Shown here piece by piece: positions 10,436-16,593 of a DNA stretch of 64,000 nt. This DNA comes from Bdellovibrionales bacterium (GTDB lineage: Bacteria; Bdellovibrionota; UBA1018; CAIMNF01), in assembly GCA_947502835.1 (NCBI GenBank), contig CANNBJ010000002.1, forward strand, positions 248,001 to 312,000. Direction: 5' to 3'. Every line of letters starts with the position of its first letter. The stretch's first letter is position 1. Below the pieces are notes generated by a model. That model was not told where the DNA came from and did no database searches. It saw nothing but the letters and a program-made list of their open reading frames with translations. A program made the position numbers and the translations under genes.

Positions 10436-10466
10436 TAAAAAAAGCAGAGCGGTTTCCCGCTCTGCT
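10436..10466 (-). terminator. Rho-independent terminator for the GFMQQP-repeat gene
   Basis: On the minus strand AGCAGAGCGG pairs with CCGCTCTGCT (10-bp perfect stem, short loop) and is followed by TTTTTTTATTTG. It lies about 50 bases past the stop of the large minus-strand gene and insulates the cold-shock gene downstream. Confidence 0.85.
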
Positions 10467-10517
10467 CTGAGAGTTTTTATTTAAAGAGAGTTTAGACGTA
10501 GCACATCCTTTTTTTGT

Positions 10518-12569
10518 TCAGATCATTCCACCATTTCCCCAAGAATTGAAATTGCCACTCAGGGGAACTGCGACGGGAAGAGATCCTGCACCTGGATTTG
10601 AGGGCTGGACAAACCCTCCGTTTTGTGGAGACCCGCTTGGAGAGAACGAGGTCGCGGAGAATCCATTGCTTGGTTGCTGCATGAACCCAGGCTGCTGCAT
10701 GAACCCAGGCTGTTGCATGAACCCAGGCTGTTGCATGAACCCAGGCTGTTGCATGAACCCAGGCTGTTGCATGAACCCAGGCTGTTGCATGAACCCAGGC
10801 TGTTGCATGAACCCAGAGTTGTTACCGGCTACGGGGAAGGTAGCGTACTGGAATCCATTTGCTTGAGGTCCCATTTGCTGGCCAGGGAAGTTCACTTGGT
10901 TATTGAAAGCCCCGGGCATCATTCCATTCATGGATTGCTGGATACCAGAGTAGCGCTGCGACAGGGTTTGGTACGTCTTCAGGGTCTGCTCGTACTCAAA
11001 GCGGGCCTGATTGCAGGCGGCAAAAGTGGCAGGGTTCATCCAAGCGCAGCTTCGCTGCATATTCATGCCAAGGTATTGAAGGTCGGCGTGTCCGCTGTTC
11101 AAAGCGTCCAGAACCTCAACGTGTGCCGGATCCAGAGTAGAGAGGAAATCCACTCGCGCAAGGCCGCCTTGTGAAAATTCAGAGGCGATTTGCTTCTCAT
11201 TCTCGCGGCTTGCAGGATCGAGACCTGGAAGCTGAGAGAGCGCATCGTGGGTTGAGGCGATGAAATCGGCATGGTCGGACTCGGCACCACAAACCTTCCT
11301 GCTGTAGAAGCTTCGTTCATTGGATTTGGATGCGCAGGCCTTTTTTGATTCTTCAGCGATGCGTTTATTTGCATCAAGAAGAAGGTCCATTCCCGCGGCA
11401 ACCGCAGAGAGCATTGCTTCCTTGTCCGCGCCATCCATCGAGAGCTTATCCATTTGTTTTGCAAGATCCATGAGCTCTTCACGGAGGCGCTTCAGCTCAG
11501 AGAGGGACTTTGCATTACGAATCCCTTCTTCGATGTGTGCAAGTGACTTCCGGATCAGCTCCTTTTGGGTGCCAACCAGGAAAGAGTAATCCAGTCCGTT
11601 CACTTCGTCGATCAGCTCGCGGGTAAGCTCTGGATTCTTGTCGCACTCAGGGCAGTTTCCGACTGCGAGTTCAATTTTCTTGAATGTTGGAGACGCGGCA
11701 AGAGGGCTTACCTCGGAGAATTCCCCGGACTCGTCCAGAAGGCCGGCGATCATGGCGCTCCCGGAGTGATCAACGTACTTCTTTAGCTTGATGCCTTTAT
11801 TCTTGGACTCCTTATTCTTTTCAACGCACTCGGCGAGAGTTGTTTCGCCCTCCACTCCGGTGTACACGAGTCCGACGCCCACGCGCTTGGAGCGCTTCAT
11901 CAGCTCTTGGGTGGTCGAGACGGTTTCGCTCGAGTCTGCTTTTTCAGAATCAAAGTACTTGCGATCCTTAAGCTTCAGGCGACTTGCGCAGGCATCAGGA
12001 AGTGATCCAGTCACCTCAAGGTTGTGATCTACAAATTGAAGTTTCAGGTTGTGCTCGCTTAGATCGTCAGAAGTCAGGTGCACGCTTGCGGTTGAAGCTG
12101 CGGGCGTTTTTGATTCTGTAGGGGTCTTTGCTTCAGCAGCCTTTGCCTCTGCAGCCTTTGCCTCTGCAGCCTTTGCCTCTGCAGCAGCCTTTGCCTCAGC
12201 AGCAGCCTTGTCATTCAGATGCTTTTCGTGTGATTCGTATAGCTTATTGATCACTTCTGGATTGAGAAAAGCTTCTGTGTTCCCCGATGTGGCGCCAACA
12301 CCATTGTCATCCCTAAACTTAATCAAAGCCTTTTGTAAATCGGCATCGACCTTTCCGTCCACATCGCCAACAAATCCAGTAGATTCACTGAGGTCTTTAA
12401 GAATCGTCTCAAGTGCTTTCGTATCTTGTTCTGAGAGAACTTGTTTCTTTTTCTTAACTAGGTATCCCTTCCCGTTAATCGCGGGAGTATCTTTATGTTT
12501 CCCAAAGCTCGCTTGTGGGAGCCCGAGTAGGGCAATGATCATGAGGGAACTATAGACTGTTTTTTTCAT
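10518..12569 (-). CDS. Large secreted protein with PG-binding-like domain and C-terminal GFMQQP repeats
   Basis: The 683-residue protein has a signal peptide (MKKTVYSSLMIIALLGLPQ then ASFGK). A segment resembling a peptidoglycan-binding-1 domain follows (GDVDGKVDADLQKALIKFRD), then an Ala/Lys/Glu-rich linker of AEAKA units. A long middle region is rich in predicted helices and has several Cys, including CPEC. The C-terminal region is rich in Gln, Asn, Gly and Pro and carries eight exact GFMQQP repeats. I start at 12569, with AGGAG upstream; an ORF start at 12644 lacks this site and would precede the signal peptide. Function is unknown; a cell-wall-associated periplasmic or exported protein is likely. 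Confidence 0.8.
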   Translation of the reverse strand: MKKTVYSSLMIIALLGLPQASFGKHKDTPAINGKGYLVKKKKQVLSEQDTKALETILKDLSESTGFVGDVDGKVDADLQKALIKFRDDNGVGATSGNTEAFLNPEVINKLYESHEKHLNDKAAAEAKAAAEAKAAEAKAAEAKAAEAKTPTESKTPAASTASVHLTSDDLSEHNLKLQFVDHNLEVTGSLPDACASRLKLKDRKYFDSEKADSSETVSTTQELMKRSKRVGVGLVYTGVEGETTLAECVEKNKESKNKGIKLKKYVDHSGSAMIAGLLDESGEFSEVSPLAASPTFKKIELAVGNCPECDKNPELTRELIDEVNGLDYSFLVGTQKELIRKSLAHIEEGIRNAKSLSELKRLREELMDLAKQMDKLSMDGADKEAMLSAVAAGMDLLLDANKRIAEESKKACASKSNERSFYSRKVCGAESDHADFIASTHDALSQLPGLDPASRENEKQIASEFSQGGLARVDFLSTLDPAHVEVLDALNSGHADLQYLGMNMQRSCAWMNPATFAACNQARFEYEQTLKTYQTLSQRYSGIQQSMNGMMPGAFNNQVNFPGQQMGPQANGFQYATFPVAGNNSGFMQQPGFMQQPGFMQQPGFMQQPGFMQQPGFMQQPGFMQQPGFMQQPSNGFSATSFSPSGSPQNGGFVQPSNPGAGSLPVAVPLSGNFNSWGNGGMI
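10672..10815 (-). repeat. Eight in-frame 18-bp tandem repeats encoding GFMQQP
   Basis: There are eight copies of the 18-base unit (plus-strand form GGCTGTTGCATGAACCCA). Six copies are identical, and the two copies at the low-coordinate end differ at one or two bases. Near-identity at DNA level implies recent expansion or homogenisation by slippage or recombination. The reading frame is kept for any copy number. Confidence 0.97.
12121..12213 (-). repeat. 15-bp-type repeats encoding the AEAKA linker
   Basis: Repeated plus-strand units of GCAGCCTTTGCCTCT, with some copies gaining an extra GCA codon, encode a run of (A)AEAKA. This gives a Lys/Glu/Ala-rich, probably helical or extended spacer between the PG-binding-like domain and the rest of the secreted protein. 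Confidence 0.85.
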
Positions 12570-12940: not shown

Positions 12941-13066
12941 ACGCTTCAGGTCCCGGCCCTTGGTAACAGAGGGAGATCCTCTCCATAAATTTAAACTAAA
13001 CCTATTTACAAAATAACGAATTTCATTTAGCTTCCGCAAACCCCGCTTTTGGGGGTGGAGGTTTGG

Positions 13067-14020
13067 ATGAGGTTCAAGGATTTAGTCGTATTCACTCTTC
13101 TTTTTGCAGTCACCGCTCAATCAAATGCGATTGAAATGGACTCAGGCGTTCCCGGCCTTCAGGCGGAGTCCCTTCGTAAGGATCAGAAGTATTTGGACCG
13201 TTTGTTTTTTGATAAGAACGAAACCCATGCGAAAACCAAGGGCGTTCTTGGGTTCTCGGGCGCAGTGAATGCGGAAAGTCTTCAGGCCTGGCTCAATGAG
13301 CGGGTTGCCCTTGTGATCTCCGAGAGCATGGATCTTGAAAAGTCAATTCTAGTTGCTCCCGGGAAGGCTCGGTATCCGGAACCAAAGGTACTGCCAAAGC
13401 CGGATCGATCCAATGTGAAACCAAAGCCATCCTCAGGCGGGCAGGGAGGTTCAGAACCGGTTCTAGTGATGTCCAACACGGGTGCGGCTCTTTACATGCT
13501 CGCAAAACAAAATCAGGTTTTACTTGCTCTCAAACAAACCAACGGAAAGCCATTTCCACTGGTTTCTCCTCGGGAAGGCGTAATCCAAATCGGGAAGGGG
13601 TTGTTCCTTGAGAAATTCCGGGTGAACCCTGAAACACAAGATCACCCTGCGAACTCTCTCTCCAGACTCTCAACGCTTTTCCATGAGGCTCGACATAGCG
13701 ACGGCCACGGGGCAACTCTGGGGTTTCCGCATGCCATTTGCCCGGAGGATCATTCCTATGCGGGGCATCCGGCTTGTGATAAAAACCTCAACGGCCCCTA
13801 CACGATCGGAGCACAGGTTCTAGGCAGTTTGGTTGAAGCCTGCGCTGACTGCAGCACAAAGGAAAAAACCATCCTCAAGGCAATTGAGGCGGATTCAAGA
13901 TCCCGGGTGCTCAAAGTCTTCAAAGACCCAAGCGGGAAAACTCTCCATGCCGGGATGTGGAGTGATCGCCCGGAGAGGATGATTTCCTTCGTTCGTGATT
14001 CGGGGCATGGTTTGGAGTAG
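13067..14020 (+). CDS. Secreted protein with an HEARH (HExxH-type) motif, possible zinc metalloprotease
   Basis: The 317-residue protein starts at the ATG at 13067, with GGAGG at 13056-13060, and has a signal peptide (VVFTLLFAVTAQSNA). A central Pro/Lys/Gly-rich linker (VKPKPSSGGQGGSEP) separates two regions. The C-terminal half contains LFHEARHSDGHG, an HExxH zinc-protease motif, and a downstream EACADC that could supply an additional acidic ligand. Several Cys (ICPEDH, HPACDKN, ACADCST) suggest disulfides in the periplasm. I do not recognise a named family. The next gene begins two bases after the stop, so they form a pair. Confidence 0.75.
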   Translation: MRFKDLVVFTLLFAVTAQSNAIEMDSGVPGLQAESLRKDQKYLDRLFFDKNETHAKTKGVLGFSGAVNAESLQAWLNERVALVISESMDLEKSILVAPGKARYPEPKVLPKPDRSNVKPKPSSGGQGGSEPVLVMSNTGAALYMLAKQNQVLLALKQTNGKPFPLVSPREGVIQIGKGLFLEKFRVNPETQDHPANSLSRLSTLFHEARHSDGHGATLGFPHAICPEDHSYAGHPACDKNLNGPYTIGAQVLGSLVEACADCSTKEKTILKAIEADSRSRVLKVFKDPSGKTLHAGMWSDRPERMISFVRDSGHGLE

Positions 14021-14610: not shown

Positions 14611-16593
14611 TCAGGTGGTGGAATCCAAAAGCTCGGCGATATCCTTCACTTGAATTTGATCCGTCATGTCTTTTGTTTTGACCCCATCGGTGATCATCGT
14701 GAGACAGAAAGGACAGGAGCTGGCTACGGTCTTTGCCTTGGTCTCAATCGCTTGTTCGGTCCTCGTGACATTGATGCGGGCTCCGTGATGCTCTTCCATC
14801 CACATCCGGCCGCCACCCGCACCACAGCACAGGCCCTGATCATGATGTTGCTTCATTTCAACCAGGTTCACCTTTGGAATGGAGGATAGAACAGCCCGTG
14901 GTTGCTCATATACATTGTTCCACCGCCCAAGATAGCAGCTGTCGTGGAAGGTAATGGTTTCATCCATTGCTTTGTTGGGCTTTAACTTTCCCGCCGACAA
15001 CAGGTGCGCAATGAATTGAGAGTGGTGATAGACCTCGTAGTCCCCGCCCATGTCCTTATACTCGTTTTTCAAGGTATTGAAGCAGTGGGGGCACGCGGTC
15101 ACGATCTTCTTCACGGAATACCGATTCAAGGTTTCCACGTTGGTCTTGGCCAATGTTTGGAACAGGTACTCGTTTCCGATCCTTCGGGCAGCGTCTCCTG
15201 TGCAGGTTTCCTCGGTGCCAAGAATCGCGAACTTTACGCCCGCCTTGTTGAGCAGGCTTACAAACGACTTCACCACTGATTTGTTGCGATCATCATAGGC
15301 ACCGGCACATCCCACCCAAAGAAGGACATCCAGGTCGGCAGCAGTTCCGGCTTCAGCCATGGTCTTTATGTTCAGACCTTCCGCCCAGTTCGCCCTCTCT
15401 GACGGACTGAAGGCCCATGGAGTACCGTTGGTTTCCATGTTCTTGAAAACGGCCTGAACTTCGGCCGGGAACCTTGATTCCATCATGACGAGGTTTCGGC
15501 GGACGTCATAAATCTTGTCCGTGTGTTCGATGAAAACCGGACAGGCGATTTCACAAGCGCGGCACGAGGTGCAGGCCCAAATCACATCTTCGGTCACATG
15601 CTCGTCAATGACGTGGGTAATGCTTTCGGCCTTGCCTTCAAGAATGGCAGCCTTGTTCGCATGCAGGTTCTTTTTCAGATCCACAATCAGATTTTTCGGT
15701 GAAAGTGGTTTCTGGGTATTCCATGCGGGGCAAAGTGCCTGACAACGGCCGCACTCGGTGCATGAATAAAGATCAAGTGCATCCTTCCAGCTCATCTGAC
15801 TTACGTTTGCAACTCCGTACTGGGTAACCGTCTCGTCCTCGAAGTTGATCGGAGTCATTCCCTTCTCGCGGTCAAGTTTCCGCAAGAAGGTGTTCGGGCC
15901 GGCCGCCACAATGTGGAGGTGTTTGGAGCCCGGAATGTAAACTGCGAAGCCCAAGACAAGACACATGTGGACCCACTTGAAGAAGGTAAAGAGACCTTCT
16001 GCGGTTTCATGCTCAAATCCAAATTCAGATAAAGCCGAGGAGATGTGCTTTGATACAAAAAAGGACTCAGAATACTCGGGGCTCGAGGCCAGGATGTGGA
16101 AACCATTCATCAAGAAGATGGAGACCATCAGTCCACCTGTGAACAGGAGTACGTTGTTCGCATCCGAGGACTGCCCGAGGTTCTTCGGCCGAAGAACGAG
16201 GCGCCGGTAGGCCGCAAAAAGCACTCCGATCAAGACAAACAGAGTGAAAAAATCCTGTGAAAAAATGAAAAGGGAGTAGGGCCCCCGTCCGATAAACTCG
16301 AAGGAGGCCCCGGAATACAAGGTCATCAGGAATTGTTCGACTGTACCGAAAGAAATTACAAGGAAGCCCCAGAAGATCGCAGTATGAGCGATCCCGATCC
16401 ACCGGTCCTTGAGTACTGCCTTCTGACCCAGCACGTTTACGATCGTGGTTTGAATGCGTCTTCCGATCTCTTTGACTTCCGGAGCCTTTCCGGTCTGAGC
16501 CTTCAGGAGCTTGTAGAGCACCATGAAGCGTTTTCCGGAAATCGTGAGAGCGGTACCTGCAACAGCCAAGAATGCAAACGTTTGCCAAGTCAT
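14611..16593 (-). CDS. Membrane Fe-S oxidoreductase linked to ETF (EtfD-type)
   Basis: The 660-residue protein has about five N-terminal transmembrane helices resembling nitrate-reductase gamma/heterodisulfide-reductase b-type domains. Two 4Fe-4S clusters follow (CTECGRCQALCP and CTSCRACEIACP), then two CCG domains (HDSCYLGRWNN and GLCCGAGGGRMWM) as in HdrD/GlpC proteins. In bacteria where this gene sits beside etfBA it is thought to pass electrons from ETF to the quinone pool during acyl-CoA oxidation, in place of ETF:quinone oxidoreductase. It is the third gene of etfB-etfA-etfD, seven bases after etfA. The start ATG has AAGGAA upstream. Confidence 0.9.
   Translation of the reverse strand: MTWQTFAFLAVAGTALTISGKRFMVLYKLLKAQTGKAPEVKEIGRRIQTTIVNVLGQKAVLKDRWIGIAHTAIFWGFLVISFGTVEQFLMTLYSGASFEFIGRGPYSLFIFSQDFFTLFVLIGVLFAAYRRLVLRPKNLGQSSDANNVLLFTGGLMVSIFLMNGFHILASSPEYSESFFVSKHISSALSEFGFEHETAEGLFTFFKWVHMCLVLGFAVYIPGSKHLHIVAAGPNTFLRKLDREKGMTPINFEDETVTQYGVANVSQMSWKDALDLYSCTECGRCQALCPAWNTQKPLSPKNLIVDLKKNLHANKAAILEGKAESITHVIDEHVTEDVIWACTSCRACEIACPVFIEHTDKIYDVRRNLVMMESRFPAEVQAVFKNMETNGTPWAFSPSERANWAEGLNIKTMAEAGTAADLDVLLWVGCAGAYDDRNKSVVKSFVSLLNKAGVKFAILGTEETCTGDAARRIGNEYLFQTLAKTNVETLNRYSVKKIVTACPHCFNTLKNEYKDMGGDYEVYHHSQFIAHLLSAGKLKPNKAMDETITFHDSCYLGRWNNVYEQPRAVLSSIPKVNLVEMKQHHDQGLCCGAGGGRMWMEEHHGARINVTRTEQAIETKAKTVASSCPFCLTMITDGVKTKDMTDQIQVKDIAELLDSTT

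Follow-up and report, generated by a model that had tools for sequence, protein, structure and literature searches.

A young in-frame tandem repeat in the uncharged tail of a probably exported protein from an uncultured Bdellovibrionales lineage

The repeat-bearing gene and its GFMQQP array

The window analysed here is a stretch of 64,000 nucleotides from a Bdellovibrionales bacterium (contig CANNBJ010000002.1, positions 248,001 to 312,000 of the forward strand). On its reverse strand lies a gene for a 683-aa protein that carries eight tandem copies of the hexapeptide GFMQQP (Table 1); an alternative longer frame of this gene in the ORF list begins at an upstream TTG. The protein is probably exported, as judged from a signal-peptide-like start read by eye, which supports the first-pass annotation in calling it secreted, and no lipobox was seen by eye. 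Following the peptidoglycan-binding-like segment, the structural model predicts a helical linker that includes the AEAK array, a core of beta and helical elements and, finally, the tail. The model was computed from a nine-row alignment and has a mean pLDDT of 66.9. Across 11 family members eight alignment columns are invariant, five of which are the cysteines listed in Table 1.

Table 1. Features of the repeat-bearing gene and its surroundings (window coordinates)
Feature	Position	Strand	Basis or remark
Array-bearing gene, 683 aa; ATG at 12569, stop 10518-10520	10518..12569	-	ORF list; orthologues align from the same start
Signal-peptide-like N-terminus, about residues 1-24	12498..12569	-	By eye; similar start in orthologues
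Peptidoglycan-binding-like segment, residues 46-103	12261..12434	-	Range from a weak NCBIfam match, E 0.02, below cut-off
Second tandem array, about 5 x 15 bp, AEAKA linker	12126..12203	-	Tandem Repeats Finder
Family core, about residues 160-544; conserved C194, C248, C306, C309, C519	10938..12092	-	Alignment
Tandem array, 18-bp unit x 8, GFMQQP x 8	10671..10814	-	In-frame coordinates; Tandem Repeats Finder and unit comparison
C-terminal tail, residues 545-683, without Asp, Glu, Lys or Arg	10521..10937	-	Composition; 551-683 predicted disordered
LPVAVPL near C-terminus	10561-10580	-	
Terminator-like hairpin 3' of gene	10441..10468	-	Weak: 3 such sites in the region against a shuffle mean of 3.7
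Divergent neighbour, HEARHSDGH	13049-14020	+	No Pfam match at E up to 1
Fe-S/CCG protein	14611-16593	-	95% identical to its G008 counterpart

Read in frame, the array repeats the codons GGG TTC ATG CAA CAG CCT; counted in coding order, the first six copies are identical and the last two depart from them by silent changes only, so that codons have hardly diverged between copies. The first-pass annotation had described eight near-identical, in-frame 18-bp units, six of them identical, at 10672-10815; this description holds, with the interval lying one base off the frame, and in that register six of the eight units are identical, the seventh being one base off and the eighth two. Tandem Repeats Finder reported a period of 18, 7.7 copies, a 99% match and a score of 271. 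At lag 18 the longest exact run in the gene spans 103 bases. Runs in 50 mononucleotide shuffles of the window never exceeded 9, and in the real window the other lags between 7 and 60, multiples of 18 left out, reached no more than 35 (at lag 15). When codons were drawn synonymously according to usage in the rest of the gene, at least six of eight identical units arose in none of 200,000 draws; together with the 103-base run, this excludes a chance origin of the array. A 20-base pattern of the unit has seven exact matches in the organism's own genome, all inside the array. The flanks are continuous and in frame, and a unit divisible by three, a frame open throughout and near-identical copies make the array a candidate VNTR-type repeat. 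It is a young in-frame tandem repeat, fairly ordinary and fast-changing.

The first-pass annotation had also considered phase-type variation. Every array unit found in the gene is divisible by three, so gain or loss of copies alters the length of the protein and not its frame, and phase switching is not supported. We also considered coding on the plus strand, where frames of 106 and 183 aa with CCMNPG or RLLHEP repeats are open across the array; these were rejected as a by-product because the antisense of the corresponding unit in a close relative (G008, see below) gives unrelated peptides in all three frames.

Arrays and chromosomal site in related genomes

The array-bearing tail differs among the three closest species. 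In G008 it contains 12 units of 15 bp encoding NGFAP in two codon blocks (five units AAC..GCT, one AAC..GCA and six AAT..GCA, the last ending NGFAS), and in G011 the tail has no array at the score used. The linker of G011 instead holds 9.3 copies of an 18-bp unit (AEAKAP), expanded relative to the second array of the window, and DUF1388, a repeat of unknown function, passes its Pfam cut-off there (33.6 against 25.9). The genome sets comprise one genome per species, and the array differences seen are differences between species. At this level we found neither of the two signs that the first-pass annotation had set against its proposal of a variable array, namely a copy number fixed in relatives and codons diverged between copies.

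At the same score, the array scan, which covered nine loci with the diverged homologues of G002 and G010 not among them, detected no array in the gene of the six remaining orthologues. Across the nine scanned loci (210,585 bases), which were chosen because they hold the repeat gene, five arrays score at least 100, and four of these fall in the repeat gene, whose nine copies make up about 7% of the bases. Three further places scoring 40-99 are outside it. Arrays in the repeat gene have periods of 15, 18 or 30 bp and lie entirely within the coding region. The other array scoring at least 100 is A-rich with a period of 21 and lies outside the repeat gene, at reverse complement 1690-1757 of locus L027.

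The independent G008 record bears on whether short-read assembly altered the copy number or the array itself. The genome of the window is probably a MAG, consisting of eight contigs in which no 16S rRNA was found by a search that was positive in 9 of 14 control genomes; two close relatives are MAGs, and common read lengths are close to the 144 bp of the array. Against these points, the array is bordered by continuous, in-frame flanks, its last two copies are not identical, and G008 has an array of its own in the same tail, all of which makes an artefact very improbable. The existence of the array is therefore firm, its exact copy number being less sure.

In the wider search, the family profile matched 9 of the 12 genomes of the genus, including that of the window, and 0 of the 43 other genomes searched in the order, a count that does not prove absence elsewhere, as the profile missed diverged homologues within the genus. 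Two such homologues are exported-looking proteins of 565 and about 590 aa in G002 and G010, whose genes share the position between the aldehyde dehydrogenase and Fe-S genes; their homology to the family is supported by hhalign (91.7% and 97.6%). In G005 the contig stops just after the aldehyde dehydrogenase gene, short of the site, and the Fe-S gene is cut off on another contig. The Fe-S protein, a peptidase and a 231-aa gene flank the repeat gene in all eight relatives compared. The repeat gene itself is 53% identical to its G008 copy, against 95% for the Fe-S neighbour, and thus represents a fast gene in a slow neighbourhood.

Two further features of the site were noted. The divergent neighbour of the repeat gene encodes HEARHSDGH, which may be a metal site, and three of the eight syntenic relatives give a tblastn match to it (E 1e-5). 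The family gene and its Fe-S neighbour are separated in G002 by a 215-aa gene (L067, 6378-7025, plus strand) that by eye resembles a small transposase-type protein.

In further searches, a profile scan of contigs with the family alignment matched 92 stretches and yielded two relatives, both in Bdellovibrionales MAGs (CANGWP010000038.1 and JAGWXK010000001.1), while a pattern scan of contigs with the single protein matched 74 stretches, none of them a relative. In a search of 40 genomes, 14 matched; nine were the genus members with the family and five belonged to other genera. These five matches cover the repeat region only, are weak (best E 1.9e-9) and in several cases contain stop codons, and we set them aside as low complexity. 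Similar DNA was not found in phage records, and a search for the same tail elsewhere in the organism's own genome gave only weak matches (E 0.27 and more) and the antisense of the array. Among the matches listed in a literature search there was nothing on this protein family.

Protein domains and the uncharged tail

The first-pass annotation had suggested a role in adhesion or biofilm formation. On that reading the repeats are displayed outside the cell, where copy number tunes adhesion, and an exported-looking protein with fast evolution and Gln-rich repeats would be in keeping with it. However, Pfam scans of the window protein and five orthologues, and an NCBIfam scan of the window protein and one orthologue, found no adhesin, anchor or autotransporter family, although an adhesin of unknown type could have escaped these scans. 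The Pfam scan instead placed PF01471 (PG_binding_1) over the cut-off of 23 bits in two of the five orthologues (28.5 and 24.9 bits), in matches that align with residues 46-103 of the window protein. In the window protein itself PF01471 gave no match even at E up to 1, and the alignment shows the segment to be missing from six more distant orthologues. The presence of this cell-wall-binding domain in two close orthologues points to the wall side of the envelope, and together with the absence of adhesin families from the proteins scanned and of a visible lipobox it renders a variable surface adhesin distinctly unlikely.

Structural comparison added little. With the full model, no PDB entry reached E 0.001 in the fold search, the best Z of 12.1 belonging to designed helical repeats and falling, according to the tool, within the chance range for helical bundles; nor did any entry with the beta domain alone (best Z 4.0). 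A PDB sequence search with the family alignment related the N-terminal segment weakly to CtpB (E 0.0076). None of these matches was counted as evidence.

The most striking property of the tail is its lack of charge. It had been annotated as Gln-rich, which is correct as far as it goes, but Gly is equally frequent and Phe, Pro and Asn are abundant. Charged residues number 0 of 139 in the tail of the window protein and 0 of 131 and 0 of 149 in the tails of its two close orthologues, against 27-30% in the remainder of each protein after residue 22. Among window frames of at least 150 aa, the longest uncharged stretch is the 144 residues in the repeat gene, and the runner-up measures 56. The window tail consists of 13% F+Y+W, 27% N+Q, 17% G and 13% P, and the three close orthologues have similar shares (N+Q 25-27%, G 16-17%, P 9-15%, aromatics 13-16%). 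In the predicted model, residues 551-683 have a pLDDT below 50 and are probably unfolded, low pLDDT from a nine-row alignment being weak proof. As an uncharged, predicted disordered sequence rich in aromatic residues and G, N, Q and P, the tail resembles FG or prion-like low-complexity domains, by analogy only. More distant members carry 2-13 charged residues in shorter tails, and the diverged homologues, with tail starts set by eye, carry 3 in 104 (G010) and 8 in 93 (G002); strict absence of charge is therefore a property of the three-species subgroup only.

These figures are also what must be weighed against neutral slippage, according to which the tail is a loosely constrained linker where copies come and go without effect. 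Unit, number and presence of the array do vary among the three closest species, in a coding region only in-frame changes survive, and the gene evolves fast. Against it stands the pattern of tail differences. Outside the arrays, the pairwise tail alignments show 31 differences in 61 residues, 33 in 80 and 34 in 67, and none of these differences gains a charge; in the rest of the protein, 37-42% of differences gain or lose one. A single-base change drawn at random in the tail codons would, if it alters the amino acid, create a charge in 25-27% of cases. Thirty independent changes at 25% each would avoid charge with a probability of about 0.0002, a rough guide because the changes are not fully independent. 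The tail alignment is itself uncertain, and arrays in the same place are to be understood as arrays in the same tail rather than at the same column. An LPVAxPL-like end recurring in several diverged tails also counts against a loose linker, and neutral slippage seems to us a tentative possibility.

This C-terminal end reads LPVAVPL in the window, LPVAIPL in G011 and G010 and LPVAVPK in G002 (loci L025, L068 and L067), and is possibly a docking motif. As a shared sorting signal it was rejected, given one other match in the genome (a FPVAVP start) against one for the reversed control pattern.

A proposed mechanism and comparison with known systems

Taken together, at the same chromosomal site the tail array is a different one (G008) or absent (G011), while the uncharged F/G/N/Q/P-rich composition is kept in all three species. 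On balance, we favour the interpretation that the array is a young in-frame repeat in the disordered tail of a lineage-restricted, exported envelope protein, with copies born and lost under a constraint on composition. Replication slippage or unequal recombination would create and remove copies, units divisible by three would preserve the frame through these changes, and selection would act to keep the frame and an uncharged aromatic-glycine-amide composition, not a given sequence or copy number. How long this flexible, perhaps cohesive tail is, and how many Phe contacts it offers, would then depend on copy number. Judged by composition and domains, the protein may reside in the periplasm, where in the three-species subgroup the PG_binding_1-like segment would grip the cell wall. 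In a periplasmic protein held by the wall, the repeats would act by adjusting a tether or a weak self-association, and on/off switching of the gene would be no part of their role.

A more far-reaching version of this interpretation would have a wall-bound periplasmic protein with an FG-like cohesive tail, its strength set by repeat number and renewed in different species by the birth of a new unit; we regard it as doubtful. Under that version the tail would be a sticker-and-spacer domain evolving within the bacterial envelope, which we likewise think unlikely. Independently of this, the closest species available differ in the sequence of the repeat, the length of its unit and the number of copies, while their tails agree in overall chemistry; such a clean case allows selection on composition to be told apart from selection on the sequence itself. 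The array is in addition a possible typing marker for an uncultured lineage, and is otherwise ordinary.

Three known systems invite comparison. Bdellovibrio, the source of Bd0108, belongs to the same order as the window organism. In Bdellovibrio bacteriovorus, an in-frame 42-bp deletion in Bd0108 occurs in 46% of the host-independent strains counted, and Bd0108 is described as a disordered protein with a signal peptide (PMC4267844), which likens it to the window protein with its predicted disordered tail and signal-peptide-like start. The two were compared by description only, and the sections of that account cited here describe no GFMQQP-like array (PMC4267844).

In Legionella pneumophila, the portions of the study cited here report 26 in-frame intragenic arrays, of which 7 are polymorphic between strains and 19 monomorphic; three months of passage left all 26 unchanged (PMC2639597). 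As in our gene, the units are divisible by three; repeat proteins there are over-represented among periplasmic and extracellular proteins, and the window protein looks exported; and the seven polymorphic arrays averaged a higher copy identity, the copies in the window being near-identical (PMC2639597). Unlike the difference between species seen here, however, the variation in Legionella was measured between strains (PMC2639597). By analogy with the stability of those arrays in passage, the near-identity of the GFMQQP copies does not prove rapid change.

Finally, in the passages cited here on nucleoporin FG domains, a larger repeat number lowers the saturation concentration exponentially, and FG repeat proteins of 13-26 units were soluble on expression whereas one of 52 units was not (PMC9579204). 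The phase-separation comparison there involved 26 to 70 units of 12 residues (PMC9579204), in contrast to the 8 to 12 short units here; the window tail belongs to a probably exported bacterial protein, and the likeness is drawn as an analogy. By the same analogy, cohesion may require more than 8-12 short units, and the tail is no more than perhaps cohesive. What the two share are repeated Phe/Gly motifs in a charge-depleted sequence bearing N, Q, G and P (PMC9579204). If the tail does prove cohesive, repeat number in an envelope protein would offer a simple way of setting self-association in a bacterial group that includes predators.
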